NCBI GenBank assembly: GCA_001804805.1
Contig: MHBH01000001.1
Coordinates: 42,790 to 87,532, forward strand
Source of the DNA: Lentisphaerae bacterium GWF2_49_21
GTDB lineage: Bacteria; Verrucomicrobiota; Lentisphaeria; Victivallales; GWF2-50-93
Length of the DNA: 44,743 nucleotides
Direction: 5' to 3'
The position numbers and the translations under genes were made by a program. Below are positions 2,219-37,035 of this stretch, in pieces (within the stretch, counting starts at the first letter, position 1; each line of letters opens with the position of its first letter). A model generated the notes under the pieces. It saw nothing but the letters and a program-made list of their open reading frames with translations. It was not told where the DNA came from and did no database searches.

Positions 2219-3103
2219 TTACCATCCTCCACCCAATTTTAAAGTTATTTGTCTTGAAAGTTCAAGATATGACTCGCCGATGATTTCGCCGAAAAAGACC
2301 CAGAGCAATGTGCCTGCCGCCAGAAACGGTCCGAGAGGGAAGGCGCTCCTGAGCTTCTTCTTCCTGAATACCATGAGGAATATGCCGTATAATGAACCGG
2401 TGAGGGAGCCGAAGAGCAACGTGAAGAAACAGGCTGGCACCCCGATCAGCGCGGCCACGGCACCGATGTATTTGACGTCCCCCCATCCCATCGCTTCCTT
2501 CTTGAAGAGAATTTTGCCGAAAATGGAGACAGCCGCCATAAAAAGTATGCAGACCGCCATGCTGCCGAAAGAAAACATGAAGGAAATAATCCATTCAGGC
2601 ACTATCCATTTCCGGTGCGGGAGCCACAGCTCCGGCCAGAACACGGAGAAGAGAAGTCCTGCAACCATAGCCGAATATGTGGCCTCATTGGGAATTATCC
2701 TGTGCTCGGTATCGACGAAGATCGTCACTATGCACAATGCCACAATGCAGAAATAAGGGACTGCGGCGGATGCCGGCTGTCCCGTCATCATGACCTTCAT
2801 CCATACAAGGAAGAAAAGATATCCGGTCATAAGCTCCACCAGGAAATAACGCGGGCTGATCCCGGTCTTGCACTTCCTGCATTTCCCGCCAAGCGCGAGC
2901 CAGCTGAGCAGCGGGATGTTGTCGTACCACTGAATCAGATAATTGCATTTCGGACAGTGCGAAGGGGGCGACACCAGGGACTCTCCCCTCGGCAGCCTCC
3001 AGATGCAGACATTCAGGAAACTCCCGATGCATGTCCCCAATATGAAGACGAAAATATTCATCATGGGAACCATCGCTTCGGGGATTTGAGATATCTCATG
3101 CAT
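2219..3103 (-). CDS. pilD: Prepilin peptidase (type IV leader peptidase, A24 family)
   Basis: This inner-membrane aspartic protease cleaves leader peptides of type IV prepilins and type II pseudopilins and usually N-methylates the new N-terminus. The 294-residue protein shows the standard order: a first membrane segment with GSFLNVCIWRLPRGES, a cytoplasmic zinc domain with CPKC and CRKC pairs, then several membrane helices. The two catalytic Asp are in DTEHRIIPNEAT and in GWGDVKYIGA (the GxGD motif). It is the only such gene in the window and is a plausible processor for the pseudopilins at 21.0-22.1 kb, although it is about 18 kb away. Its last codons overlap an alternative upstream ATG of the esterase-like gene, so the two are probably co-transcribed. 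Confidence 0.93.
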   Translation of the reverse strand: MHEISQIPEAMVPMMNIFVFILGTCIGSFLNVCIWRLPRGESLVSPPSHCPKCNYLIQWYDNIPLLSWLALGGKCRKCKTGISPRYFLVELMTGYLFFLVWMKVMMTGQPASAAVPYFCIVALCIVTIFVDTEHRIIPNEATYSAMVAGLLFSVFWPELWLPHRKWIVPEWIISFMFSFGSMAVCILFMAAVSIFGKILFKKEAMGWGDVKYIGAVAALIGVPACFFTLLFGSLTGSLYGIFLMVFRKKKLRSAFPLGPFLAAGTLLWVFFGEIIGESYLELSRQITLKLGGGW

Positions 3104-20473: not shown

Positions 20474-20663
20474 GAGAACGACACTTAACATAGACGCTGA
20501 AATTCTTGCAAAGGCTTCGGATCTTACTGGAATCCGGGAAAAGACAGCTCTTGTCAGAAAAGGGCTGGAATCACTTATTTCCAAGGCAAGCGCCGCCCGT
20601 CTGGCAAATCTTGGTGGAACTGAAAAAAACATCAAGCCTGTTCACAGACGGAGGGGCCCTTGA
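20466..20663 (+). CDS. vapB: VapB-type antitoxin
   Basis: The 65-residue antitoxin starts MRTTLNIDAEILAKA, then LTGIREKTALVRKGLESLI and ARLANLGG, the standard ribbon-helix-helix type VapB pattern (DUF2191-like). It ends with a basic Arg-Arg-Arg tail that would bind the toxin. AAGGTG lies 9 bases before the ATG at 20466; a second ATG at 20472 is also possible. Its stop overlaps the vapC start. Confidence 0.88.
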   Translation: MHMRTTLNIDAEILAKASDLTGIREKTALVRKGLESLISKASAARLANLGGTEKNIKPVHRRRGP

Positions 20664-21022
20664 TGGTTCTTGTTGATACCTCCGTATGGATAGATCATTT
20701 CAGGAACAATAACATAAAGCTAACCGAGATTCTTATCTCCGAAGAAGTTTCCTGTCATCCATTCATAATCGGTGAGCTGGCCTGCGGAAACATCAAAAAC
20801 AGGAAGGAAATCCTATCCCTGCTCAAGGCTCTCCCAACTCTGCCTAAAGCAGGAGACGAAGAAATATTATTTTTCATTGAGACTCATAATATTTCAGGAA
20901 AAGGCCTCGGACTTATTGATGTTCATCTGCTGGCATCATGCCTCTTCAAAAACGCTGCTTTATGGACTTTGGACAGAAAATTAAAAGAAACCGCCATATT
21001 GTGCGGGATTGAAGCTTTCTGA
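20663..21022 (+). CDS. vapC: VapC-type PIN-domain RNase toxin
   Basis: The 119-residue PIN-domain ribonuclease typically cleaves tRNA or rRNA. The four acidic positions are visible: Asp5 in VDTSVWIDHF, Glu38 in IGELACG, Asp86 in LGLIDVHLLAS and Asp104 in WTLDRKL. The ATG overlaps the vapB stop by one base (TGATG), and GGAGG lies 8 bases upstream. It converges with the pseudopilin operon. Confidence 0.92.
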   Translation: MVLVDTSVWIDHFRNNNIKLTEILISEEVSCHPFIIGELACGNIKNRKEILSLLKALPTLPKAGDEEILFFIETHNISGKGLGLIDVHLLASCLFKNAALWTLDRKLKETAILCGIEAF

Positions 21023-21026
21023 ATTA

Positions 21027-21044
21027 AAAAGGCAACTGCCTTTT
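21027..21044. terminator. Bidirectional terminator between vapC and the pseudopilin operon
   Basis: AAAAGGC and GCCTTTT enclose AACT, with T-rich sequence on both sides. It could end both vapC and the long minus-strand operon. Confidence 0.75.
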
Positions 21045-21214
21045 CATTTATTCAATGAATCGGCTTTCTTCTGAAGACTCTTCTCTATGTCCAAGTTCTT
21101 CTTGTGCCACTGGTAGTTGAATTCCAGGGCAAAGGAAAGCATTAGAAAAAGAACTGCAGTGAATACAATAACTATTATAATTGAAAATCCTTCCTGATTC
21201 TTCCTGTTCTTCAT
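21044..21214 (-). CDS. Very small GspK/PilX-like pseudopilin
   Basis: I prefer the ATG at 21214, preceded by GAGGTGG; this gives 56 residues. The N-terminus MKNRKNQEGFSIIIVIV is a classical prepilin leader with Gly at -1 and a hydrophobic helix, but position +5 is Ile instead of Glu. Loss of Glu5 is typical of the GspK/PilX tip subunit, yet those are usually far longer, so this is either a helix-only mini-pilin or a remnant. It is the last gene of the operon. Confidence 0.65.
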   Translation of the reverse strand: MKNRKNQEGFSIIIVIVFTAVLFLMLSFALEFNYQWHKKNLDIEKSLQKKADSLNK

Positions 21215-21230
21215 ATCCACCTCATTTTTG

Positions 21231-21662
21231 TCACATGCATGATACAATTCTTATTCTATCCTTGCTGTTCTGCTTCCCTTTAACTTCAACATTCAGCACT
21301 GCGAGTTTCTCAGAATTATCCTTTGCCTCGACCTCCAGGGAAACAATCATTCCTTCCGGAAGAAGGGCAAGATCCCTCTTGCCGTTTTCATCGACTAAGA
21401 ATATCCTGCTGTTATCGGCCATCAGCTTTTTCTGTCCGGACACAAGGCAGTTCCCCTCCTTTTTCCAATCCGGAGACAAATGTATGATATTCCTGAACTT
21501 GCCGGAAAGGACGAACATCTCCTGATTGCTCAATGATTTCTCGACCGCCTGGGTGCAGAGCTTTGATCCGTCATAGAAGAACTGGAATGCAAGCTCGAAC
21601 ATGACAAGCATTATCGCTATGACTACCAGCATCTCAATCAGACTGTAACAGTTTTTCCTCAT
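21231..21662 (-). CDS. Pseudopilin-like protein (leader NCYSLIEML)
   Basis: The 143-residue protein has a type IV prepilin N-terminus. SLIEMLVVIAIML is the methylation helix with Glu at +5, but the residue before the cleavage site is Cys instead of Gly. The remaining 115 residues are a small, likely globular domain (GKFRNIIHLSPDWKKEGN and LPEGMIVSLEVEAKD). A minor pseudopilin role (GspH/I/J class) is plausible. The preceding 32-bp gap holds the hairpin at 21678-21695. Confidence 0.8.
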   Translation of the reverse strand: MRKNCYSLIEMLVVIAIMLVMFELAFQFFYDGSKLCTQAVEKSLSNQEMFVLSGKFRNIIHLSPDWKKEGNCLVSGQKKLMADNSRIFLVDENGKRDLALLPEGMIVSLEVEAKDNSEKLAVLNVEVKGKQNSKDRIRIVSCM

Positions 21663-21677
21663 ATTTTCCCCAGTATG

Positions 21678-21695
21678 ACAGGCTTTCCAGCCTGT
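21678..21695. repeat. Hairpin ACAGGCT-TTCC-AGCCTGT between two pseudopilin genes
   Basis: Seven-base perfect arms enclose the loop TTCC. It is another member of the variable-arm TTNN hairpin family, and it sits inside the operon. Confidence 0.7.
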
Positions 21696-22069
21696 TATTT
21701 TATTTCTTCAGCAGGCGTCTGCCCTGTTTTAATTTCGATTCTGCCAATCTTCTTCCCATTTTTCCTCTGTATTTCCAGGACTGCCCTGCCATTGCGGATT
21801 TCGCAGCATTTCCTGACATCATCGTCACCTTCAAGTACGCTTCTTCTGAATTCATCTTCAAAAATATCCTTTATCCTGGCGAAATCCGCTTTTTTCTCGA
21901 AGGATATCCTTTCAAGTGAATTGTCGAGGACCTGGAGAGCCCTGCTCTCACGGGTGAAATTCCTGTCCATGACCCTGAGATTATGCGCGGAACTGGAAAA
22001 CAATGCCGCAACCATGGCCAGAAGCCCCATCGCAAATATGAGTTCCATAAGTGTATATTTATTCTTCAT
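21695..22069 (-). CDS. Pseudopilin-like protein (leader NKYTLMELI)
   Basis: The 124-residue protein begins MKNKYTLMELIFAMGLLAMVAAL, a prepilin helix with Glu at +5 and Lys in place of the -1 Gly. The rest is charged and probably alpha/beta. Its ATG overlaps the stop of the GspE-like gene by four bases (ATGA), a translationally coupled junction. Lentisphaerota prepilins often read K-FTLIELL without a Gly, so this fits the lineage. Confidence 0.8.
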   Translation of the reverse strand: MKNKYTLMELIFAMGLLAMVAALFSSSAHNLRVMDRNFTRESRALQVLDNSLERISFEKKADFARIKDIFEDEFRRSVLEGDDDVRKCCEIRNGRAVLEIQRKNGKKIGRIEIKTGQTPAEEIK

Positions 22070-23118
22070 AGCAGATACACATCCTTCTCATATATTATTC
22101 CGGCTTCAGCCATTTTCGCCGCAGCCTGTTTTACATCGGTGTCAGGATATTCCGTGATTTTCCTGCGGAGATCCCTGAGCCCCGGATTGCTGATTATGAA
22201 ATCCTTCCATTCATCATTCGGATTCAGATATGCGGCAACAGGAATCCGCCCTTCCCCATTTTTTTCCTGGACAAGCCTCTGGGCTATGACTCCTGTAATC
22301 GCCGAGGCGACAAGGAACGGTTCAAATCCCTGGTGCAGCATCCGCGCGTATACGGACGGAATATCCCCGGCATGAAACGTTGTAATCACACGGTGCCCGG
22401 TAAGAGCTGCGTCAAGCGCCACCTTGACGACGCTGCTGTCCCTCATCTCGCCGATGACTAGCGTCTTGACATCCTGCCGCAATGCCGCCCTCAGTGCTTC
22501 AGGATAACCCCACCCCTCCCCGCATCTGGTAAGGGAAATCTGTGATATCCCGTCAACTTCGCATTCGACAGGGTCTTCAACTGTAATGATAGAGGCGGGA
22601 TCCTGCGAATTCCGCAGCAGTTCCCGAATCATCGCATAGATTGTCGTTGTCTTCCCGCAGCCGGTGGGGCCTGTCAGCACTATCAGCCCTGAAGCAGGAA
22701 TTAGCATTTTTTGTAATGATGAAAGGACATTGTCGGTAAAATTAAGGTCGACGAGGCATGCGTTGATTCCGCTCCTGTAAAGGACGCGGATAGAAATTCT
22801 TTCGCCATTGGTAGTCGGCATCGCGGCAACACGGAGTTCAGCATCTGCGAAATCCGCAACTCCGCGGATGATTCCGTCCTGGGCTATCTTGGTCCTATAT
22901 GTAAGGAGCCCTGAAATCACTTTTATCCTGTTGACGCACTGGTCCCCGAACTCACGTGGAATCCTCTCATGGTCATGCTGGATCCCATTTATCCTGAACC
23001 TGATGTTATATCCGTCCTTCATGGGCAGCCAATAGATGTCGCTGGCCTTCCGCTTAAGGGCCTCGGAAAAAATCTTGTCGACAAATGGAGGAACTTGATT
23101 GTCTTCTTGTGTTTTCAT
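22066..23118 (-). CDS. GspE/PilB-family assembly ATPase (short form)
   Basis: It is a hexameric cytoplasmic ATPase that drives pseudopilus or pilus assembly. The 350-residue protein has Walker A GPTGCGKTTT around residue 150, the Asp-box Glu in TVEDPVE, Walker B TLVIGEMRD, and the His box TGHRVITTFHAGD. Compared with GspE of type II secretion (about 500 residues) it lacks the N-terminal GspL-binding domain and the tetracysteine zinc loop (the region reads LVQEKNGEGRIPVA). The length fits PilT-like proteins, but the context of GspF and pseudopilins argues for an assembly role. It lies between a GspF-like gene and a pseudopilin gene. Confidence 0.88.
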   Translation of the reverse strand: MKTQEDNQVPPFVDKIFSEALKRKASDIYWLPMKDGYNIRFRINGIQHDHERIPREFGDQCVNRIKVISGLLTYRTKIAQDGIIRGVADFADAELRVAAMPTTNGERISIRVLYRSGINACLVDLNFTDNVLSSLQKMLIPASGLIVLTGPTGCGKTTTIYAMIRELLRNSQDPASIITVEDPVECEVDGISQISLTRCGEGWGYPEALRAALRQDVKTLVIGEMRDSSVVKVALDAALTGHRVITTFHAGDIPSVYARMLHQGFEPFLVASAITGVIAQRLVQEKNGEGRIPVAAYLNPNDEWKDFIISNPGLRDLRRKITEYPDTDVKQAAAKMAEAGIIYEKDVYLL

Positions 23119-23122
23119 ATTT

Positions 23123-24457
23123 TCACCAAAATACCGTTACATAATCAGTAATCCTGAATATCCCAAGCGCAAGCCCGATTATTATTGAACCGAACAGGAT
23201 GACGTTTATCAGGACTGCGACAATCTCAATTATCTGGAGGAATCCCTTGGAAGAAGAGCTTATTTCAAAGCGCACCCATCGCAGGGATGTATCGAAGCCC
23301 TCGCTTAACCTATCCCTCATGACAGCATTCCTGATTATCATATTATGCAATGGATCATATAGCTCCATATCCTCCCAGGCATCAAGCCAGTTCCTGCCAT
23401 TCTCAGCTGACTTCACGAATTTCCCAAGCCTGAATTTTATAAACTGATAACGGCTTGAGGCTATGCTCCATTCAGCGGCTTTTATCACATCGTCACCGGA
23501 AGAAATAAAGGCGGCCATGGATCCGGACAGTTCAACTTGTGCGGCCGCCTTGTAATACCATCCGAAGACAGGCATCCTTATCAGGCATTCTTCCAGTATC
23601 CTTTTAATCAATGGAAGATTTGATATTAAAAGAACGGCACACAGGCCAATAAAGAGGAAAGACAATATCGCATCGTAATTGGCATGCAGGAAATCAGATA
23701 CGCAGAAGACTATCTTGGTCATTTCGGGATAATAAACAGTATTCCCCTCGTAAAGCTCATACAATATCTTCTGGAATTTTGGAACTATGAAAATCATGAG
23801 CCCCGTGGCTATCAGAGACAGGTTCACAAACTGGATTACAGGATATGCAAAGCTTGCCTTGATTTCATTTCTCAGGCCGTGGACAAAGCTTATATTTTCA
23901 GCCAGCTGCGGGAGAATTTCCCTGAGTTTCCTTTCCTTGTCGGCTTTTTGTATCGCAAGAAGCAGATAATCAGGGAAATATCTATGGAGCCTCCTGCTGA
24001 ATGATTCTGAAAGCGAAACTCCGTTTTTCAAATCCGCCGACACCAGCATTAATTGCGAATGGAATGATGGACTCGTGAAAACAATAAAGCTTTTTAACTT
24101 TTTCCTCTCATTTATAAAGAACAGGATAGGAAGAATTATCATGATCGCAATCATTATCATCGTCCATTTGATCATGTCTTCCATATAGATAGAGTTCCTC
24201 ATTAAAACGATCAAAAGCTTGAATATAAAAAAGAGTGCCAGTAAAAATACAGGAAGAAAAAGAAAATATGGACTTTTCCTGACTTTATATTTATCATCAT
24301 CAATTTGAGTCTCATTTCTTCCTTCCCTGCAGAATCCGTCAATCGCTTCATCAAAGGGTATATCGTTCCTGGCCGCAAACGCGAGAGTCTTCATAAAATA
24401 GTCGATGCCAGTATAGAAGTGCTGGCTATCAACATAGTATGGACCGTTCAGATTCAT
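23123..24457 (-). CDS. GspF-like platform protein, divergent type B (copy 2)
   Basis: The 444-residue inner-membrane protein starts TLAFAARNDIPFDEAIDGF, the GspF opening motif. An inserted pair of membrane helices follows (residues about 60-115), then two GspF-type halves. Helix-turn patterns such as LKNGVSLSESFSRRL and AAFISSGDDVIKAAEWS mark the two domains, and hydrophobic helices end it near residue 440. It is longer than a usual GspF (about 400). The nearest relative in the window is the 382-residue copy. The start is 3 bases after the previous gene, with GGTGG upstream. Confidence 0.82.
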   Translation of the reverse strand: MNLNGPYYVDSQHFYTGIDYFMKTLAFAARNDIPFDEAIDGFCREGRNETQIDDDKYKVRKSPYFLFLPVFLLALFFIFKLLIVLMRNSIYMEDMIKWTMIMIAIMIILPILFFINERKKLKSFIVFTSPSFHSQLMLVSADLKNGVSLSESFSRRLHRYFPDYLLLAIQKADKERKLREILPQLAENISFVHGLRNEIKASFAYPVIQFVNLSLIATGLMIFIVPKFQKILYELYEGNTVYYPEMTKIVFCVSDFLHANYDAILSFLFIGLCAVLLISNLPLIKRILEECLIRMPVFGWYYKAAAQVELSGSMAAFISSGDDVIKAAEWSIASSRYQFIKFRLGKFVKSAENGRNWLDAWEDMELYDPLHNMIIRNAVMRDRLSEGFDTSLRWVRFEISSSSKGFLQIIEIVAVLINVILFGSIIIGLALGIFRITDYVTVFW

Positions 24458-24460
24458 TTT

Positions 24461-25510
24461 TCATCCACCAAGCTTGTTTATGATTGCAATCAACGGCGTA
24501 AAGAGCCCTATAATAATACTGCCGACAGCGACGGAAAGTATGATTATCAGGAACGCCTCCCATGCCAATCCCGCCTTATTGATCGCGGCAATGGTTCTTT
24601 CCCGGTACATCTGGGAGAGATTCTTAAGCTCTTCAGACCGTCTGGTTTCAGGCACGTTTTTTACAGTCAGGACTATCAGGTCGGATATTATTTCCTCATT
24701 TTTCAGGCATTCGACAACATCCCTGCCCTCAGCGCATCCTCTTGAAATGTTCTTGAGCGAGGCTGAAAGCTTGGATTCCTCAATAATCTCGGAGATTGCC
24801 TCAAACGCATAGACCATTGAAAGCTTCTGTTCCATGAAGACAGCCCACATCGAGCAGAAACGGGACATCTGCAGGTTTTTGAAAATATTTCCAGAGAATG
24901 GAAGAAATCTTATTATCTTTATAAATGTCTTTTGGGACGCAGGACCTTTATTGGCAAAAAGCCAGATCAAAAAAGCAATTGATGAAAGAAAAAATGCCAG
25001 TATCGCAATCTCATATTTGACCGATAGTGAAGAGAGTGTGACAACTAAATCTGTAAGAGGAGGAAGCTTCTCACCCTCAAGAAGCTCACTGAATATCTGT
25101 GCGAACTGCGGCACTACAAGCCTGAGGATGAGAAAAAACAGCATGAATGAAAATGATATGGTGAACACCGGATACAGCGCAATTCCCTTCACCATCGAAA
25201 CAAGTTGGTGATTCATTCTCGACATATAGGCAATTTCGTTCAATATCTCGGACAAGGTTCCGCTTTTCTCGCCGCTTTCTATCATTCTTACATGGAACGG
25301 CTGGAAGTAATCAGGAAACTGCCCCATGGCCTCCGATAACGGCTGTCCCTTGGAGGTTCCTGCGGAAACGCTGAAGAGGACTTGTTTGAAGTCAGGCTTG
25401 TCAAAGTTGGCGGCAAGCTGGCGGATGCTTTCCGGAAGCGGCAGATTCGATTTCACAAGCAGTGATAGCTGCCTGTAGAAATCCGCGATTTCTGTTTCGT
25501 TGGTGGCCAT
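24461..25510 (-). CDS. GspF-like platform protein, type A (copy 2)
   Basis: The 349-residue protein has the GspF pattern FYRQLSLLVKSNLPLPESIRQLA at the start. VSAGTSKGQPLSEAMGQFP and MIESGEKSGTLSEIL follow in the first domain. Three membrane helices are present, and PQFAQIFSELLEGEKLPPLTDLVV precedes the second. Its sequence pattern closely parallels the protein at 26711-27748 (for example SELLEGEKLPPLT), so the two are paralogs. AGGA precedes the ATG. Confidence 0.88.
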   Translation of the reverse strand: MATNETEIADFYRQLSLLVKSNLPLPESIRQLAANFDKPDFKQVLFSVSAGTSKGQPLSEAMGQFPDYFQPFHVRMIESGEKSGTLSEILNEIAYMSRMNHQLVSMVKGIALYPVFTISFSFMLFFLILRLVVPQFAQIFSELLEGEKLPPLTDLVVTLSSLSVKYEIAILAFFLSSIAFLIWLFANKGPASQKTFIKIIRFLPFSGNIFKNLQMSRFCSMWAVFMEQKLSMVYAFEAISEIIEESKLSASLKNISRGCAEGRDVVECLKNEEIISDLIVLTVKNVPETRRSEELKNLSQMYRERTIAAINKAGLAWEAFLIIILSVAVGSIIIGLFTPLIAIINKLGG

Positions 25511-25540
25511 ACTGTCCTAATGTACCATTGTTAACGTATT

Positions 25541-26689
25541 TTAAAATGCCTCCGCGAGATATCCGATTATTCTGAATATCGAACCCAGCAGGGCTATTGC
25601 CGTTGAAGCGACAATGAGTCCTATGAACAATATTCCCGAGATCTCTATCCACCGGAGCTTTTTCACGGACGACTTCGAAACATCATTTGAGAGCCATACC
25701 AGCATTGTATCAAATCCTTCGGCGGGATTGTTCCTTGCCGCAGAATTAGTCACTATCCAGTCATTTATTGATACGCCAAACCCCATCTCCATCCATGCCA
25801 AAGACCAATCCTTCCCATTTTTTACCGACACTGCGAATTTCAAGAGTTTTTTCCTCATCCATGGCCTTCCAATCGTTGCCGCACTTATTTCCGCAGCCTC
25901 TGCAATGTCTTTTCCTGAAGACAGATATGACGCCATGGATCCGGCAAGTTCAAGCAAGGCGTTCCTTTTAACGCTTCTGTTAAGCAAGGGGATTCTGACA
26001 ATGATTTCCTCGAAAATGATTTTTAAATAAGATCCAAGAGGAATGTAGATTAACATGAATAGAAGAAAAAACATCAGCATAGTAAAGAAGTTTGAGAACA
26101 GCCAGTTTGATACAGAAATGTACCTGTTTAGAAAAACTGGAGTTTCCGTACCCTCCAAAAGCTCAGCGTAAATCTTTTCAAACTTTGGGACAATGAATAT
26201 TGACAAGAATGATGTTATGAAAATAATAACAACAAGTTCAATTGTCGGAAAACTCAGCGCGGAAAATATCCTCATCTTTATATCGGTCACGAAATTAATT
26301 CTTTTGGCAAAGCGTGGCATCATTTCCGCGAGACATCCTTCTTTCTCAGCTTTTTCCACAGCCTCAAGGAAATATGCAGGAAGATAATTTGATAGCCTTT
26401 TCCTCAGGGCCAGATGGAGAGGCGCTCCTTTTTTAATGTCGATAATTGCAAGCTCCAGGGAAGTACTCCACTTTTTCCTGAAAAAATTGCTGAAGTGCGG
26501 CATCAGATCGTCCTTGCCTCGCACCGTTCCGCAGTCCGTAATGGTCGACAGGGCCTCATCAAAGGGAATGTTATGATCTGCGGCCCAGGCTATGGTGCTG
26601 GCAAGAATGCCAGCCTTGGAATATGAAAGCATGCCGTCTGCCGACTCGGCATATTTTCCACTCGTATAAAGTAAATTGTTGCCCATCAT
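25541..26689 (-). CDS. GspF-like platform protein, divergent type B (copy 1)
   Basis: The 382-residue membrane protein opens with STIAWAADHNIPFDEALSTI, similar to the 444-residue copy. It has IKKGAPLHLALRKRLSNYLPAYF, VEKAEKEGCLAEM and PKFEKIYAELLEGTETPVF. A second-domain pattern is LAGSMASYLSSGKDIAEAAEIS. It lacks the inserted helix pair of copy 2. It is translationally close to its neighbours on both sides. Confidence 0.85.
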   Translation of the reverse strand: MMGNNLLYTSGKYAESADGMLSYSKAGILASTIAWAADHNIPFDEALSTITDCGTVRGKDDLMPHFSNFFRKKWSTSLELAIIDIKKGAPLHLALRKRLSNYLPAYFLEAVEKAEKEGCLAEMMPRFAKRINFVTDIKMRIFSALSFPTIELVVIIFITSFLSIFIVPKFEKIYAELLEGTETPVFLNRYISVSNWLFSNFFTMLMFFLLFMLIYIPLGSYLKIIFEEIIVRIPLLNRSVKRNALLELAGSMASYLSSGKDIAEAAEISAATIGRPWMRKKLLKFAVSVKNGKDWSLAWMEMGFGVSINDWIVTNSAARNNPAEGFDTMLVWLSNDVSKSSVKKLRWIEISGILFIGLIVASTAIALLGSIFRIIGYLAEAF

Positions 26690-26710
26690 AACGACTTGTC
26701 CTTAGGTTCC

Positions 26711-27748
26711 TTAATAGATAAAATGGCTGAGTATAGGCAGGAATAATATAAATATGATGGTTCCTACAGCACATATCATCATCATCATGGAAACAAGTTC
26801 CCAGGCAGTGCCCAAGCGCCTGAATCCAAGCGTTGCCCTGTCCTTGAACAGTTCGGCCAGCCTGTCGAGCTCTGAAGAAAGTTCCTTTTCAGGGCTGTGC
26901 TTCAGGGTCAAAGTCAATACTTCAGAGATATCTCCCTCCTTCGAGAGTTCTTCTACAAGGTTGCCACCTTCAGAACATTTGGATGCAATTCTTTTCAACG
27001 CCAGCTCCAGTCTCTTGTTTTCGACAAGCCCGGCTATGACAGACAGGGCTTCCGCTGCAGGTATGTTCTGCTTTATCATCAAGGACCAGAGCGAGCAGAT
27101 CCGCGCCATGGAAAGATTATAGAAAATCACATTTGAAAAAGGGACCGCCTTGATTACTTCCAGGAATATCTTCTGTGAAAAGAGGCTGTTTCCCAGCAGC
27201 CAGACTGAAAAAGCTATGTGCGAAATAAAAATAAAAGCGACAAAATAAACATGATTTCTTGTCAGTTCAGATATCCCCATAATGAACTGGGTCAGAGGCG
27301 GAAGCTTCTCGCCTTCAAGCAGGTCGCTGAAAATAATCGCAAAATGAGGAACGATATAGTACATGAGAAGGAAGAATATGAAAAACGCAAAAGTAGTAGT
27401 GAACAGTGGATATGCCAAAACATCTTTTACCAGGATGGTCAGCTGGCTCTGCAGGTGCGAAACACGCGCAATATCCAGCAGGATGTCGGGGAGAAGTCCG
27501 GATTTTTCCCCCAAGCTGATCATTTTCACGTGCATCGGATGGAAGTAGGAGGGGAATCTTTGCATCGCTTCGGCAAGGGGAACACCTTTTGACGTGTCCT
27601 CGCTTATTTTTTGGAGGATTTCCCGGAATTCCTTATGCCCTGAATTCCTGCCGAGATGACAGAGGGTTTCAGGAAGAGGCATGTTGGATTTTGTGAGGAT
27701 TGATAGTTCCCTGTAGAAGTCTGTAATTTCCTGGCTTCTTGTTTTCAC
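26711..27748 (-). CDS. GspF-like platform protein, type A (copy 1)
   Basis: The 345-residue protein starts with GTG, supported by GAGGAG 9 bases upstream. Key patterns are FYRELSILTKSNMPLPETLCHL, ISEDTSKGVPLAEAMQRFP, ISLGEKSGLLPDI and IFSDLLEGEKLPPLTQF, matching the type A copy at 24461-25510. GspF forms the inner-membrane platform around which the ATPase turns. It starts 31 bases after the macroglobulin gene. Confidence 0.88.
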   Translation of the reverse strand: MKTRSQEITDFYRELSILTKSNMPLPETLCHLGRNSGHKEFREILQKISEDTSKGVPLAEAMQRFPSYFHPMHVKMISLGEKSGLLPDILLDIARVSHLQSQLTILVKDVLAYPLFTTTFAFFIFFLLMYYIVPHFAIIFSDLLEGEKLPPLTQFIMGISELTRNHVYFVAFIFISHIAFSVWLLGNSLFSQKIFLEVIKAVPFSNVIFYNLSMARICSLWSLMIKQNIPAAEALSVIAGLVENKRLELALKRIASKCSEGGNLVEELSKEGDISEVLTLTLKHSPEKELSSELDRLAELFKDRATLGFRRLGTAWELVSMMMMICAVGTIIFILFLPILSHFIY

Positions 27749-27779
27749 TGTATTTCGCTCCTCATGCTATAATCTCACT

Positions 27780-30700
27780 TCATTGTTCAACTTTTTCAAC
27801 TTCAATAGCGACAGAACCGGTTTCGGAACTGATCGCAGGCTGATAATATTCATAAGCCCGTGAAACCGGAGTCTGCGCCCTTATCGGATATTTCGCCTTC
27901 ATATCAAAGGAAACAACCGCCTGGGAATTGGCTTTGATCTCCCTGAGATAAATTATTGCCTGCCGCCCCCTTATTTCCCATTGTTCAATATCATTTCGGT
28001 CTTTCATGGCCTCCAGCTTGTCAGGAATCACATCAAAACCCGGAGGCACTCCAATGTCCACGAGGACCATATTGGCAGGCATCGCCCCGTTGTTGTCCAC
28101 AGTAGCCCTGCAGTTTATAATATCATTGACCTTCAGGTTATTCTTTTCGTATTCGACATTGATCTTCAGGATCTCCTTGGCGTCTGAAGAGTGCTCCTTT
28201 TGGGGGATATAATACTCAACAACGAGCTGATAATTGTAGTTTTCATCTTTGGGAGAACGTATTTCAACGGAGTTCACTCCTAGCTGCACGGACGCTGCCA
28301 GATCAATCAGCTGGCATATGTCATAGTTCTCCCCGGTAATGCCTATTTTATTTACCGCTTTCCCGTTTACAGATATCGTTATCTCATAGGGCTTGTCGTA
28401 TTTCTTCTGTTTCTTCCCCGCTATAATCGCACGCAGGCACTGGATTGTCGACTGGGTGGTCCCCCAGTTTCCATTCTTATCCTTTTTACTGATCAGCCAT
28501 GACAGCACCTTGGAAGCCGTAGCCGTATGCTGTCCTGCCCTGAACATTGCCTGAAGTGCAAGGGCGGTTGCTTCAGTATCATAATAAATGTTCTTTTTCC
28601 CCTTGATGTTCCACATTACGAAATCCCCCTCCTCGCTCCTCGATTCATACAGCTTTTCTATCATATTATCGGCCTCCGGCCTTCTTGCAGCGGCAAAGGC
28701 ATTTGCACAGTACGCAAGCGTCCTTGCATCCTTGATCTCATCGAGATGTTTAAGGATATAATTGAACGATGGCTCCAGCTCAGAATTATCGAGTCCGGAT
28801 TCGGCGAGCGACATCAGGATATATGACGTAACTTCAATATCTGTATTCAGCCCCAGGGCCCATCTTTCATTCTTCCAGGAACCGTCCGCCTCGCGTTTGT
28901 AGATAAGCCATTTCCTTGTCCTCTCAATGACCTTTAAATCAACGCTCTCATAGACTTTCCGCATATCACAGAATTCCATCAGGCCGTAGGCGGACAATAC
29001 TGTATTAGCCGGAGATCTTCCGAACCATTCAAATCCACCGTTTGAGATCTCGAAAGAAAGAAGGCGCTGATATCCGGTATTTATCATGCCCAGGGCCTTC
29101 ATCTGTATCTCGGGTGATATCTGACCGGTCTTCTTCATGTACTGCAGAGCAAGTACATTAGGATAAGTTATCGATGAAGTCTGCTCAAAACATCCAGACG
29201 GCATCTTCAGTATTGATTCCATCCCATCGACAATCTGGCTGAAAACTCCCGGATATATCCTCATATATGCCCTGGCCGAACCTTCAACGGCGTTTCCGGG
29301 TATTTCAAACTTGTCCATCGTCTTTCCATCGACAGGAGAACCATTGATGACTATTTCAATCCTCTCCCCGGCAGGTTCAACCTCGATATTCCTTTCAATC
29401 GCGTCAGAGCTGTTCTTTCCAAAAGCCTTGACCGTTAGGGAATGCTTCCCAGATTTTACGGCTTCAACGGTGAAATATATGCTCTTCACCTGGCCTGGCA
29501 GAATGACAATTTCCTTTTTGAGCGAATCGGAAATCCTGAACGAACCATTGTCCACAAGCTCAAGCTTCACGGTCTGGGATTCATTCAGATAATTGTAGAC
29601 AGTAACAGGAATGCTGACAATATCGTGCTGAGTGAGTTTCACCGGGAAATCAATGTCGACAAAGAAATCCTTGAATACTGTGATATTATCCTCGGATGAA
29701 CCCAGTCTTCCGTTCTTATCAACGGCACCGGTCGACATCCGCCAGGTCGTAATTGAATCAGCCAGCGGGATCTCCACTGATGCCTTTCCATTCTCATCGG
29801 TCACAATTTCAGGAATCCATAGCAGGGTCTCCGGAAAATAGCGGCGGATACGGGCGCTGCCAACAGCCTTGTCGACATATTTTTCGTCCTGATCAATGAA
29901 AGGCTTCACCTCCTGCGTTGGATTTCCATAACCACCGCTCCATCCATCACCTCCACCGAGTTTATTCGTTATGCAAATCAATGGCATGAACATACTGATA
30001 ACAGTGATTGGAACAAGTATCAGTATCAACCCTATTGGACCATAGAAGAAGAATGCCATGAATATGAAAAGGGCGGGAGTCTCTCCCATTTTCCTTCCAA
30101 GCCCCCTTGCAGGCACCTGGCGGACGACGGGAGTTGCAAGCATTGATCCGCCTGTAAATGTAGTCACCCCGCAGGCATAGACGGAATATAAAGTTGCCAT
30201 TATGGCCAAGACAAGCAGGATATAAATCTCCAATAAATGCCTATTGACCGGCAGGCATACGGTAAGGAATGCAACCAATGCCGTTATAAGAACATAAAGA
30301 GGGTAGGCATAGAATGTCGGAAACAGCACCTTGTGTGAATTGTCCAGTTTCCAGGACAGCCTGAAAAACTTCTCAAGAGCTTTCCTGTATTTTAAAAATG
30401 AAATCAGGGCAGGAATGAACGTAATAACAAACAAAGTGAATAGCCAATAGAACAGGTAGCCATCCGCTATTTTCAACCTGAGACATAGAAGAACGATGCA
30501 GCAGGCAACCATGGGAACGCATGCAATCCATTTCCAGGTAATTGATGACAAGGAGCTCTCCCATTCATACCTGTCGCATTTTATGAATTCATATGTATTC
30601 TCCGCAGGAACCAAGGTCCTCTTCAAACCAAGAAGCAATGCCGGAAGGATCATCAGGAAGAAAACACCGATAAGCGCGAATATTATTCCTGCACTTAGCC

Positions 30701-32972
30701 TTTCCTGGTATTTATTCTTCTTTTCATCCAGCGCCTGTTTCCTTTTATCATAGCTTTCACCTGCAGTAAACTCGGCCTTGTTTATTTTCATATCGTTCGA
30801 AAGAAGCATGCCTGCCGACTGCTGATAGCTTTTTTCATTCCCCGCCGTTTCAGGGAATATCCGCGGAACAGCCTTTATCTGGTATTTCGGCTTGAGAAGC
30901 TCTTCCTGAAGGAGGAAATACATCTTTTCAAAGCCGGGATGCATCTGGCAAAGTGAAAAAACGGCCTCATCTACAATGGAAAGGCTCAACGCCGCAACAA
31001 CCGGCTTGCCGTTCTTGTCTTCAACTGCTAACTTCGCAGCGCAATTTCCTCCGGGCAGATATTTATCCTTATCCAGCTGAGTGGTTATCTTAAGGCTCTT
31101 CGGATCGTTGACCTGGATAAGCCTCAGATCGGAAACTATCTCGCCTCCGGGAAGTATCCTATATGCCTGGACCTGGAGCGTGCCGACAAGCTTGTCATCC
31201 ATGTCTATGAAACATTCGGCTTCCTTGTTTTTCACCTCGATTGTCTTCATCAGGATGCAGACACCGTTGCGGACGACATCGAGAAAGAATATGCCTGTTT
31301 CGACCGAGGTCATTATATTTATCTTTGCAGTATCGCCGACCTTGTAGACAGCCTTGTCCGTACGTAGAATGAAGTTTTCAGGCAAGGAATCTATCGAGTA
31401 TGATTTCTTTCCGGCTTGCTCGCGGTTGCCGGCACTCTTGACAGTGTATGCCAAACTCCAGCATGGAACACCAGAACTGGTGTTGCTTCTTCTGCTGAAG
31501 ATGGGAAAACCAGGGGGATTTTCATCTGCTTTGCCAGGAATCGCATCATTTATGTGGGGCGTAGCTGCGAACATCGCAATACCATTGTCATCTGTGGAAA
31601 CAGCACCAATTTTTTCAATATTGACCTCGGTCTTGACAGGCGTGCCGTCGGGATAGCTTGTAAAGACATAGAAATTAGTCTTTATTGGCAGAATCCTTCC
31701 ATTTTCCGGGAAGAATTCAACCTTGAAAGTGTCCTTGGAGATAACAGTCTTTTTTAAAAGCGACTGGCTGTGCCCTCCGGAATCCGTGGCTGAAACATCC
31801 AGCTTCACAAAAGCATCTCCGCTTTCAAGATGGCTGCCTGTAAAATATTCCTTCAAGGGAATGCTGAATTCGTAAACTCCTCCGCTGTCGCTCTTTCCCT
31901 TGACTGATGCAAACTCGTTGAATTTATCAGTGAAATCAGATGCCTTCACAGTAATATCCGCGCCTGAAACCGGTTTTCCGAACATATATGAAAGGGCTAC
32001 TGTTCCCCTGACGATCTCTCCTGGCTTGTAGAAGCACTGATCTGTCTTCACGGAAATGGAAAACTTAGGCAGGACATATTTCTTCACTTCGACAGTCTTC
32101 TCCGAAACGGTGTTCCCCATGGAAACCTTTATGCTGTAATCGCCGCTGTTCACCTGCTCTGCAAGAAGGAATGAAGTTGCGGCTATGCCGAAATCAGAAG
32201 TCTTCAATTCCTTCCTGTAGACCTTGTTTCCTTTCGGATCAAAGATTTCCATGTTGACATTCCTGCCGGCTGCCGGCTTTATCGAAGATGTCTCCATCGT
32301 CAGCGTTCTTATGTTCATAGTCTGTCCAGGCTGATAGACAGGCTTGTCCGTCGACAGCATGCACTTATAGGTACGCCTGACTGAAATCTGGCGTTCGGCG
32401 TTGACTTTCTGGCGGGTGTTCAGTACATATGCCTCAAGCTTGTAGTCCCCTTCGCTTATCTCAGGGAACACCTTCTCGACCACGGCTATCCCATTATTGT
32501 CGGTAACAGCCTCAAATGTCTCAAGGATTTTTCCGTTGCAGTCCTTCAACAAAATTTCGAGATCTTTGTTTTTGATCGCCGTCGAAGTCTGTCCATCGCG
32601 TATGAACACCCTGAAGGAGAGCTTCTGATCAGGTGAAAAGTTCCTGTGGCTGTAAATGAAAATTTCGGAAGGATCGGCCTTTGCGCTCAATATGTGGAAG
32701 GAAAGAGCAGTAGTCGCCAGTATCGCAGCAGAAAGAATTATTGCCGCAGCCTTCTGGAAAGTCCTGTTGAAAAAAAGCCCCCAGAAATCCCTGACATCTC
32801 CCATTGTCACAGGGGAAGGAACTTTATCCCTTATTGACCTCAGCACCTTTTTGACAAAAGCTTCATCGGGATTTACTCCTGCACGTACAACTTCCCTGAT
32901 CATTCCGTCCATTGCCGGTTTATCACCGGCATTACAGGGTATTTCCTCTTTTTTCATCTCTTCCTTATTCAT
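27780..32972 (-). CDS. Membrane-anchored alpha-2-macroglobulin-like protein with polytopic insert
   Basis: Alpha-2-macroglobulins trap proteases and bind them covalently through a thioester. The ATG at 32972 overlaps the sigma-factor stop and gives 1730 residues. Visible order: a charged cytoplasmic N-terminus (1-73) and one membrane helix (74-95). Macroglobulin beta-domains follow, with repeats such as CMLSTDKPVYQPGQTMNIR and FYKPGEIVRGTVALSYMFGKP. A helix-rich insert with about six membrane segments lies at about 755-1003. The C-terminal macroglobulin part includes SITTWRMSTGAVDKNGRLG and the thioester site Gly-Cys1261-Phe-Glu-Gln1264, where CGEQ or CLEQ is usual. An all-helical thioester domain and a receptor-type end domain follow. 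An even number of helices would put both large parts in the periplasm. The short N-terminus next to an ECF sigma factor could act as an anti-sigma region; this is inference. No pbpC partner is present. Confidence 0.88.
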   Translation of the reverse strand: MNKEEMKKEEIPCNAGDKPAMDGMIREVVRAGVNPDEAFVKKVLRSIRDKVPSPVTMGDVRDFWGLFFNRTFQKAAAIILSAAILATTALSFHILSAKADPSEIFIYSHRNFSPDQKLSFRVFIRDGQTSTAIKNKDLEILLKDCNGKILETFEAVTDNNGIAVVEKVFPEISEGDYKLEAYVLNTRQKVNAERQISVRRTYKCMLSTDKPVYQPGQTMNIRTLTMETSSIKPAAGRNVNMEIFDPKGNKVYRKELKTSDFGIAATSFLLAEQVNSGDYSIKVSMGNTVSEKTVEVKKYVLPKFSISVKTDQCFYKPGEIVRGTVALSYMFGKPVSGADITVKASDFTDKFNEFASVKGKSDSGGVYEFSIPLKEYFTGSHLESGDAFVKLDVSATDSGGHSQSLLKKTVISKDTFKVEFFPENGRILPIKTNFYVFTSYPDGTPVKTEVNIEKIGAVSTDDNGIAMFAATPHINDAIPGKADENPPGFPIFSRRSNTSSGVPCWSLAYTVKSAGNREQAGKKSYSIDSLPENFILRTDKAVYKVGDTAKINIMTSVETGIFFLDVVRNGVCILMKTIEVKNKEAECFIDMDDKLVGTLQVQAYRILPGGEIVSDLRLIQVNDPKSLKITTQLDKDKYLPGGNCAAKLAVEDKNGKPVVAALSLSIVDEAVFSLCQMHPGFEKMYFLLQEELLKPKYQIKAVPRIFPETAGNEKSYQQSAGMLLSNDMKINKAEFTAGESYDKRKQALDEKKNKYQERLSAGIIFALIGVFFLMILPALLLGLKRTLVPAENTYEFIKCDRYEWESSLSSITWKWIACVPMVACCIVLLCLRLKIADGYLFYWLFTLFVITFIPALISFLKYRKALEKFFRLSWKLDNSHKVLFPTFYAYPLYVLITALVAFLTVCLPVNRHLLEIYILLVLAIMATLYSVYACGVTTFTGGSMLATPVVRQVPARGLGRKMGETPALFIFMAFFFYGPIGLILILVPITVISMFMPLICITNKLGGGDGWSGGYGNPTQEVKPFIDQDEKYVDKAVGSARIRRYFPETLLWIPEIVTDENGKASVEIPLADSITTWRMSTGAVDKNGRLGSSEDNITVFKDFFVDIDFPVKLTQHDIVSIPVTVYNYLNESQTVKLELVDNGSFRISDSLKKEIVILPGQVKSIYFTVEAVKSGKHSLTVKAFGKNSSDAIERNIEVEPAGERIEIVINGSPVDGKTMDKFEIPGNAVEGSARAYMRIYPGVFSQIVDGMESILKMPSGCFEQTSSITYPNVLALQYMKKTGQISPEIQMKALGMINTGYQRLLSFEISNGGFEWFGRSPANTVLSAYGLMEFCDMRKVYESVDLKVIERTRKWLIYKREADGSWKNERWALGLNTDIEVTSYILMSLAESGLDNSELEPSFNYILKHLDEIKDARTLAYCANAFAAARRPEADNMIEKLYESRSEEGDFVMWNIKGKKNIYYDTEATALALQAMFRAGQHTATASKVLSWLISKKDKNGNWGTTQSTIQCLRAIIAGKKQKKYDKPYEITISVNGKAVNKIGITGENYDICQLIDLAASVQLGVNSVEIRSPKDENYNYQLVVEYYIPQKEHSSDAKEILKINVEYEKNNLKVNDIINCRATVDNNGAMPANMVLVDIGVPPGFDVIPDKLEAMKDRNDIEQWEIRGRQAIIYLREIKANSQAVVSFDMKAKYPIRAQTPVSRAYEYYQPAISSETGSVAIEVEKVEQ

Positions 32973-33531
32973 AGTCCGTACCGCTTTTGTAGTCTGTTCC
33001 TGAAATGGCGCTGTTGATGCAGGTTTCAAGCTCAGTCCTTGCGCGCTGAAGTCTTTTTCTGACCGTGGCCTCGTTGCAATCTATTTTTTCCGCCACTTCG
33101 CTGCCACTCAACCTGTTAAAATAGAAATATCTTAGAGGAACTCTCAATATTTCGGGAAGTTTCCTTATGCATTCGGCGAGAAAATGAAAGATGTCTGAAT
33201 CCTCCTTGTCGGAAGCATCCCAGAGGAGATGGGATTCCTCAAGGGAATCCAGCTGGCTTTCGTCAAGGTATATTTCTTTCCTGGTGCGGAGATATTCAAG
33301 GTGCTTGTTTCTTATTATTCCCCTCAACCAGGCTGGAAAACTTTTCGCAGTGTCAAATGTTTCTATCTTGAGGAAAGCCGTTACAAACGCATCCTGGACC
33401 AGATCTTCCGCCGTACTCTCGTCCCTTACCAGGCACAAGGCATAGGCGATAAGCCTCTTATGGTGTTCGCGGACAAGGATCTCAAAAGCCTTGCTGTCAG
33501 GAATGTTTTTGTTTGTAATCCTAGTATCCAT
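32965..33531 (-). CDS. ECF-type RNA polymerase sigma factor
   Basis: The 188-residue protein has region 2 (AYALCLVRDESTAEDLVQDAF...FPAWLRGIIRN) and region 4 (LPEILRVPLRYFYFNRLSGSEVAEKIDCNEATVRKRLQRAR). It lacks regions 1 and 3, as in ECF sigma factors. The last residues are a duplicated SGTDYK/SGTDYE. AGGGG precedes the ATG. Its final codons overlap the ATG of the macroglobulin gene by 8 bases, so the two are translationally coupled. This is typical for a sigma and its membrane regulator. It is the first gene of the 12.5 kb operon. Confidence 0.92.
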   Translation of the reverse strand: MDTRITNKNIPDSKAFEILVREHHKRLIAYALCLVRDESTAEDLVQDAFVTAFLKIETFDTAKSFPAWLRGIIRNKHLEYLRTRKEIYLDESQLDSLEESHLLWDASDKEDSDIFHFLAECIRKLPEILRVPLRYFYFNRLSGSEVAEKIDCNEATVRKRLQRARTELETCINSAISGTDYKSGTDYE

Positions 33532-33648
33532 AACAAAACCCCTTCTAACTGCTTTCTACCTATAATTGACACTTAAAGGGTGATTTGTGACATGTAATAT
33601 TTATTTTTTCACCTATTTTTTTTATTCGTAATTTTGAATACATAATTA

Positions 33649-36252: not shown

Positions 36253-37035
36253 ATGCTAATATTTTTTGACGAGTCATTCAGGAATTCACTATCGGAACCA
36301 GGAGCTTCTTTGGGTACCCTGTGTGGCATCGCCATCCCGGAAAAGGAGATGGGGCGTGTTTCCGAGGAAGTATACAGAATAAAAAAGAAGCATTTCGGAG
36401 TTGACTTCGCCAAGGAAATGGAAATAAAAGGAAAGGATCTTTTCAAGAATTATGTGTTCAGACTTGCAGCCAAAGGAATAGAATCCAAAAACCTCAACTT
36501 CTCAAAGGATCTTATTCATTACATCAGGGGCAAAAAGCTGAAAATCTTCGGATGTGTCTGTTTTGAGAAAAGCATCCAGCGCTTCGAATGCGAAGATGTC
36601 AGAGCCCTTGACATGACATTCAGATATCTTTTCGAGCGCATAGACACCTTCATGAAAATTGAGCATTCAGACTCGATGGCAAAGCTCATTTTTGACGACC
36701 GTGACTATGGAATAAACAGGAAAAACTCAGAGGCCATAACAAACTTCTTCCTTAGAACTTCAAAAGGAAGCTCTATGGATTCAATAATCAAGACTCCTTT
36801 TTTCGCAATCTCTCAGTCTCAGAATGTAGGACTCCAGCTTGCTGACTTTGTGACAACCGTAATTGGCCTCAAATATGCGAATGAGACAAAAATTGAACCG
36901 TACTATGCCGATCTTAAAAAATCGGTGTACAGTTATTATGACGAAAATGACAGGTTTATAAGCGGAATTAAGGTGATTCATCCCAGAAAAGAAAAAACGC
37001 CAGGTGACCCGAAGATCCGCGGTCGGGACAAGTAA
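36253..37035 (+). CDS. DUF3800-family protein
   Basis: The 260-residue protein begins MLIFFDESF, the DUF3800 start (usually Y-x-DESG), and includes LIFDDRDY. Its C-terminal signature is SQSQNVGLQLADFVTTVIG. The family has an RNase H-like fold with acidic active-site-like residues, and many members lie in defence or mobile regions, but the function is not established. It is somewhat more A+T rich than mutS and follows it directly. Confidence 0.8.
   Translation: MLIFFDESFRNSLSEPGASLGTLCGIAIPEKEMGRVSEEVYRIKKKHFGVDFAKEMEIKGKDLFKNYVFRLAAKGIESKNLNFSKDLIHYIRGKKLKIFGCVCFEKSIQRFECEDVRALDMTFRYLFERIDTFMKIEHSDSMAKLIFDDRDYGINRKNSEAITNFFLRTSKGSSMDSIIKTPFFAISQSQNVGLQLADFVTTVIGLKYANETKIEPYYADLKKSVYSYYDENDRFISGIKVIHPRKEKTPGDPKIRGRDK

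Follow-up and report, generated by a model that had tools for sequence, protein, structure and literature searches.

What is an alpha-2-macroglobulin doing in one operon with the motor of a secretion machine? Bacterial macroglobulins are usually regarded as passive protease traps. A 44,743-nucleotide stretch of the Lentisphaerae bacterium GWF2_49_21 genome (here G000; assembly GCA_001804805.1, 5.9 Mb; contig MHBH01000001.1, positions 42,790 to 87,532), which as a whole we call the window, carries on its minus strand, from position 33531 down to 21044, ten co-directional genes with no change of strand. In order, they encode an extracytoplasmic function (ECF) sigma factor, a thioester macroglobulin (A2M, or X when considered together with its relatives), four GspF-type platform proteins (F1, F2, F3, and F4), a short GspE ATPase, and three pseudopilins (pp1, pp2, and pp3). 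A previous reading made from the letters alone (the sequence-only reading) had named these genes and their short or overlapping junctions, and it was borne out: all ten genes are present, with intergenic gaps of -8, 31, 21, 30, 3, 4, -4, 32, and ~16 nt. The A2M start is best placed at the ATG at 32972, which gives an 8-nt overlap with the sigma gene, and the start of pp3 is the ATG at 21214 rather than 21229. The entire operon recurs in the same order in the nearest relative having it, Lentisphaerae GWF2_50_93 (G001, contig MHBI01000098.1). Nine of the genes share 85-97% identity between the two genomes, with ratios of nonsynonymous to synonymous substitution (dN/dS) of 0.04-0.24, and pp3 is 91% identical. 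This identity pattern, together with the low dN/dS, shows that these are real genes under purifying selection. We tentatively read the system as a type IV filament-class motor in reduced form, coupled to an envelope sensor and scaffold derived from a macroglobulin; the interaction, the cleavage, and the effect on expression are steps that we infer.

The macroglobulin (27780..32972, minus strand; 1730 amino acids, aa) comprises an N-terminal transmembrane (TM) helix (aa 72-90), macroglobulin (MG) domains MG1-MG6, a polytopic domain, MG7, a thioester domain, and a receptor-type domain. Domain scores were 4e-39 for the thioester domain (TED), 2e-32 for MG2, 9e-22 for A2M, 5e-13 for BRD, and 7e-13 for the receptor domain, and MG3 was matched too. 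The thioester motif GCFEQ is intact at aa 1260. The protein therefore has what defines the A2M family, namely MG domains, a thioester domain with C-x-E-Q, and a receptor-type domain, and by sequence its best solved structures were animal A2M and CD109 (best E 5e-60). Across three large segments, dN/dS between the window and G001 was 0.12-0.16.

While the N-terminal TM helix agrees with the membrane anchor proposed by the sequence-only reading, a second, central membrane domain had gone unmentioned there. It spans aa 722-1039 (29856..30809, minus strand), contains about six predicted TM helices, and stands between MG6 and MG7 in the place of a bait region. When the protein was aligned to human A2M, the match resumed after this insert at human residue 729; we take the limits of the human bait region to be 690-728, so that residue 729 marks its end. 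In addition, aa 1-1165 as modelled by AlphaFold are similar to the beta chain of C3, a chain made up of MG1 to MG6. Together, the alignment and the C3-like model indicate that the membrane domain occupies the position of the A2M bait region or the C3 anaphylatoxin domain. The adjacent loops may nevertheless be open to cleavage. The window protein thus shares MG1-MG7, the C-x-E-Q thioester domain, and the receptor-type C-terminus with animal alpha-2-macroglobulin, CD109, and complement C3, but differs from them in its membrane anchor and in the polytopic domain replacing the bait or anaphylatoxin domain. YfhM (ECAM) of E. coli and MagD of Pseudomonas are thioester macroglobulins located in the envelope, the latter encoded in an operon. 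The window differs from both in lacking PBP1C or Mag partners, and in its other domain set, its polytopic domain, and its secretion-type motor as partner.

The genome also holds a stand-alone A2M paralogue (contig C73, L034 10975-16041), with 42% identity in the C-terminal half and no secretion genes beside it. Its membrane domain lies at the bait position too and closes with a DUF1559 stretch resembling pseudopilins (SBP_bac_10, 2e-4); to find a pilin helix within a macroglobulin is odd. We considered this domain as a homologue of the one in the window and kept the two apart, as no sequence match could be detected despite the shared position.

Is the association with the motor particular to this operon? 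A profile of the X membrane domain, run over the order, retrieved five full-length copies (the window, G001, G320, G226, and G022), all directly upstream of F, although in G226 and G022 the module is spread across more than one contig and gene order there is in part deduced. This substantiates the link between macroglobulin and secretion motor that the sequence-only reading had drawn. The remaining profile matches covered only about the last 30 residues, and those that could be placed were PilC/GspF proteins; a profile of F C-termini likewise scored the end of the X membrane domain (E 5e-6 to 1e-4). Among the five copies, a full A2M precedes F only in the window and GWF2_50_93. The X protein of G320 (821 aa; E 7e-37 against the window A2M) has a short N-terminus, a TM helix, several MG domains, and the polytopic domain, then stops, having lost MG2, MG7, and the thioester domain. 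That of G226, a congener of G320 (1054 aa; E 2e-94), retains MG2 (1.5e-23), a bait-region domain, and the membrane domain but no thioester domain; because it ends inside MG7, it must descend from a longer A2M. In G022, X is the membrane domain alone (310 aa), all MG domains being gone. A macroglobulin-derived membrane protein therefore adjoins F in three families. With no thioester domain in G226, G320, or G022, protease trapping, which the sequence-only reading had offered as a possible function of the system, cannot be the shared role.

Behind this variable front lies a more widespread core. Searches with F2 and E revealed a recurrent set of F, a divergent partner F', a short E, pp1, pp2, and often pp3. 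A close E (1e-105 or better) was found in 15 of the 137 genomes of the order, representing 13 of 48 genera and four families, and a rearranged set was present in one genome from a further family (G191). The relatives are nearly all metagenome-assembled genomes (MAGs), among the named carriers MAGs of Victivallales, Lentisphaeria, and Kiritimatiellota. Outside the module, the comparison of neighbouring genes in these genomes was limited to the proteins of the operon itself. The expectation that gene order would be kept across several genera thus holds for the F-F'-E-pseudopilin core and, in three families, for X beside F; it fails for the complete set (sigma factor, thioester A2M, and two F pairs), which turned up in no more than two species, both belonging to a single genus. 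Two further genomes of that genus lack the operon, although one, G003, has a completeness of just 77%. A single 742-aa open reading frame (ORF) of G282 joins F' to E (L112 9242-11470; T2SSF 2e-4, T2SSE 7e-71), which hints at contact between F' and E.

In the window, the platform is doubled. The four T2SSF proteins (E 1e-37, 4e-14, 2e-31, and 6e-15), all on the minus strand, are F1 (26711..27748), a GspF/PilC-class platform protein; F2 (25541..26689), its divergent partner of the F' clade; F3 (24461..25510), a second F copy; and F4 (23123..24457, 444 aa), a second F' copy that, judged by hydropathy, has two additional TM helices at its N-terminus. The ATPase (22066..23118, minus strand, 350 aa; T2SSE 1e-68) covers positions 103-381 of the 486 in the GspE model and is consequently truncated at both ends, missing the docking region at the N-terminus as well as the C-terminal part. 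In type II secretion, the N-terminal region of GspE docks on GspL, and its absence here is in line with an operon without GspL/M.

The pilin-like proteins are likewise encoded on the minus strand. The product of pp1 (21695..22069) is a minor pseudopilin resembling GspI or ComGE (ComGE 5.5e-6, GspI 3.8e-4, both below the curated cut-offs). That of pp2 (21231..21662), with a weak prepilin N-terminal match, is a minor pseudopilin and probably GspJ-like by position, and pp3 (21044..21214, 56 aa) amounts to a prepilin N-terminal helix only. As pp3 has Gly at -1 and lacks Glu5, as in GspK, it is probably GspK-like. Prepilin peptidases usually need Gly at -1. By our reading of the alignments, this residue was found in none of 15 pp1 and one of 14 pp2 proteins across modules, with Glu5 kept. 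Three solitary pseudopilins (L075 3585, L127 18810, and L138 2349) share this pattern, having H, N, and K in place of the Gly. We therefore dropped the idea of a module-specific loss of prepilin-peptidase cleavage; the trait may be lineage-wide.

Consistent with the reduced machine that the sequence-only reading had envisaged, the operon encodes no secretin (GspD), GspC, or GspL/M, and none of its three pilin-like proteins matched the major pseudopilin GspG. Secretins and several other GspE/GspF sets are present elsewhere in the genome. A complete prepilin peptidase (A24_N_bact 1e-36, Peptidase_A24 1e-15), one of two in the genome, is encoded on the minus strand at 2219-3103 of the window, ~18 kb from the operon. 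The operon thus has the motor ATPase, platform, and prepilin-like subunits of the type IV filament superfamily, with a peptidase in the window but outside the operon. Compared with type II secretion, E, F, and the I/J/K-like minor pseudopilins occur in similar gene order; the system differs in having no secretin, GspC, GspL/M, or major pseudopilin in the operon, in a GspE without N- and C-terminal parts, and in a platform pair of F and F', doubled here. The Gram-positive competence pseudopilus (ComGA-ComGB-ComGC/D/E) also has a short ATPase without N-terminal docking domain, and ComGE gave the best score for pp1. However, the window lacks a ComGC-type major pilin, has two different platforms and a macroglobulin partner, and belongs to a Gram-negative-type lineage.

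Where, then, do the two platform pairs come from? A first F tree had included L058, wrongly called as an ORF, and later trees were built without it. In the first tree, a clade of F proteins (98/95) was separate both from canonical PilC/GspF and from F', whose own clade reached only 84/67. In the later ones, F1 grouped with F proteins from macroglobulin-linked modules in other families (94/95) and F2 with the F' proteins of such modules (100/98), while the window's E grouped with those of G004, G005, and G007 from its own family (95/92), the same genomes whose F proteins F3 most resembles. The trees indicate that the operon is a mosaic, with F1 and F2 derived from the macroglobulin-linked side and E from the module of its own family. 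In the simplest history, F3-F4-E-pseudopilin was the resident set, and an X-F1-F2 block was inserted between it and the sigma gene, in the slot of an anti-sigma gene.

The sigma factor (32965..33531, minus strand, 188 aa) has regions 2 and 4 (Sigma70_r2 3e-17, r4_2 2e-11) and no region 3, as in ECF sigma factors, and is closest to the Rhodopirellula/Verrucomicrobium family (TIGR02989). In G004, F is preceded by two genes with a 14-nt overlap, of which the upstream one is firmly an ECF sigma factor, and the second is a membrane anti-sigma-like gene, assigned by layout and a weak match (E 0.035) only. In G005, a truncated ECF sigma remnant stands directly upstream of F (L074 11426-11530), with 60% identity to the G004 sigma factor over 35 aa. 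In the window operon, the macroglobulin would fill the anti-sigma slot. Its helical, cytoplasmic N-terminal segment (aa 1-71; 32760..32972, minus strand), conserved in G001 over aa 22-71, is a putative anti-sigma domain, a role that fits its position, the gene overlap, and its greater length: the A2M N-termini are shorter in the sigma-less relatives (G320, G226, and the C73 paralogue), consistent with X having taken the anti-sigma slot. As in the ECF sigma/anti-sigma pairs of the PVC group, the sigma gene overlaps that of a membrane protein whose N-terminus is cytoplasmic and much of which lies in the periplasm; unlike in those pairs, the partner is a macroglobulin whose N-terminus has no recognisable anti-sigma domain.

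Upstream of the sigma gene, 64 nt (33532..33595, minus strand) are 100% identical between the window and G001, beyond which the two sequences are unrelated. The block holds a candidate promoter motif, TGTCACA-N14-TGTCA, at 33567-33592. It resembles the ECF41 motif, TGTCACA-n16-CGTC (PMC3426412), with a shorter spacer, and we treat it as a predicted promoter and a lead only. As its other two matches in the genome fall inside genes, no regulon could be derived from it.

From these observations, a working model can be sketched. The core machine would consist of one ATPase (E), a two-part platform (F and F'), and a few minor-pseudopilin-like proteins (I/J/K-like), and the operon would join two related versions of this reduced inner-membrane machine, which recurs in Lentisphaeria. 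One version appears to have brought its own membrane partner, X, docking on F through its domain of about six helices and serving as envelope sensor and scaffold. Periplasmic proteolysis or ligand binding would collapse the macroglobulin around the membrane domain, and the signal could pass from there to the F/F' platform and, via the N-terminal segment, to the sigma factor, whose release would raise expression of the operon. The conserved role of X would be that of a membrane partner of F, with thioester capture an add-on retained in this genus; as all A2M parts are kept under selection in the window genus, protease trapping may be an added function there. A bolder version, which we consider unlikely, is a protease-triggered switch, in which cleavage at the former bait position traps the protease covalently and also acts through the membrane domain and cytoplasmic tail to engage the pilus-type motor and free the ECF sigma factor. 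Such a switch, if true, would tie a complement-like sensor of bacteria to an envelope machine driven by ATP.

Several observations weigh against a sensor coupled to the motor. The support that places F1 with macroglobulin-linked modules (94/95) is just under the strict cut-off. AlphaFold gave low confidence for the membrane domain (mean pLDDT 47 when modelled alone), the topology of which rests on hydropathy and helix count. The N-terminal segment matched no anti-sigma family and did not align with the anti-sigma-like protein of G004. Moreover, several modules (e.g., those of G007, G012, G025, and G282) showed neither a sigma factor nor X in front of F, so the core can do without either, and the sigma factor is no constant component of the system. 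Nearly as likely as the sensor, though still doubtful, is a purely structural X that stands in for GspC, GspL, and GspM, its MG domains being a spacer or substrate-binding arm, with the sigma factor acting only in transcription and no proteolysis or release by X. The membrane domain indeed stays beside F even where the thioester (G226 and G320), MG2 and MG7 (G320), or all MG domains (G022) are lost, and a GspE without the region generally known to dock on GspL, in an operon without GspL/M, would suit such a substitute. However, the MG domains, thioester, and receptor-type domain kept here at a dN/dS of 0.12-0.16 would be needless for a mere spacer.

X may instead be a classical protease trap or defence protein, like YfhM or MagD, that belongs to the same stress regulon as a satellite secretion machine but never touches it. 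The full A2M domain set with its C-x-E-Q thioester and the C73 paralogue, which stands alone without secretion genes, speak for mere co-regulation of this kind, but we think it improbable given that X adjoins F recurrently in three families, including forms unable to trap, and that the bait position holds a membrane domain. Least probable of all is an accessory device of the type II secretion or type IV pilus kind that relies on the genome's other systems for its peptidase, secretin, and major pseudopilin and whose cargo, secreted or displayed, is the macroglobulin. The genome could supply such parts, with its secretins, two prepilin peptidases, and several further GspE/GspF sets; however, X has membrane segments at two places and is thus no soluble cargo, and relatives at the locus have shrunk to the membrane domain.

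Right at the 3' end of the operon, the window has a convergent gene for a PIN-domain protein (20660-21022, plus strand; 1.5e-8), and a DUF3800 protein is encoded immediately after mutS (36253-37035, plus strand); G001 has no DUF3800 protein at that place. Between sigma and mutS, G001 has a small pair that by eye is toxin-antitoxin-like (L036 16487-17054), which the window lacks.

Within the literature (subscription papers being outside reach), no described macroglobulin-sigma or macroglobulin-secretion-motor system was found, in agreement with the sequence-only reading, which knew of none combining a macroglobulin with a type II secretion-like platform. The locus thus presents a macroglobulin fold built around a polytopic membrane domain and inherited beside a pilus- or secretion-class motor in three bacterial families, where it persists even after losing its trapping parts. 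If the proposed docking is true, macroglobulins would take on a role new to them, partnering an envelope machine driven by ATP, and a reduced, two-platform member would join the type IV filament superfamily. The operon also offers a testable case of a sigma factor with a complement-like protein as its sensor.

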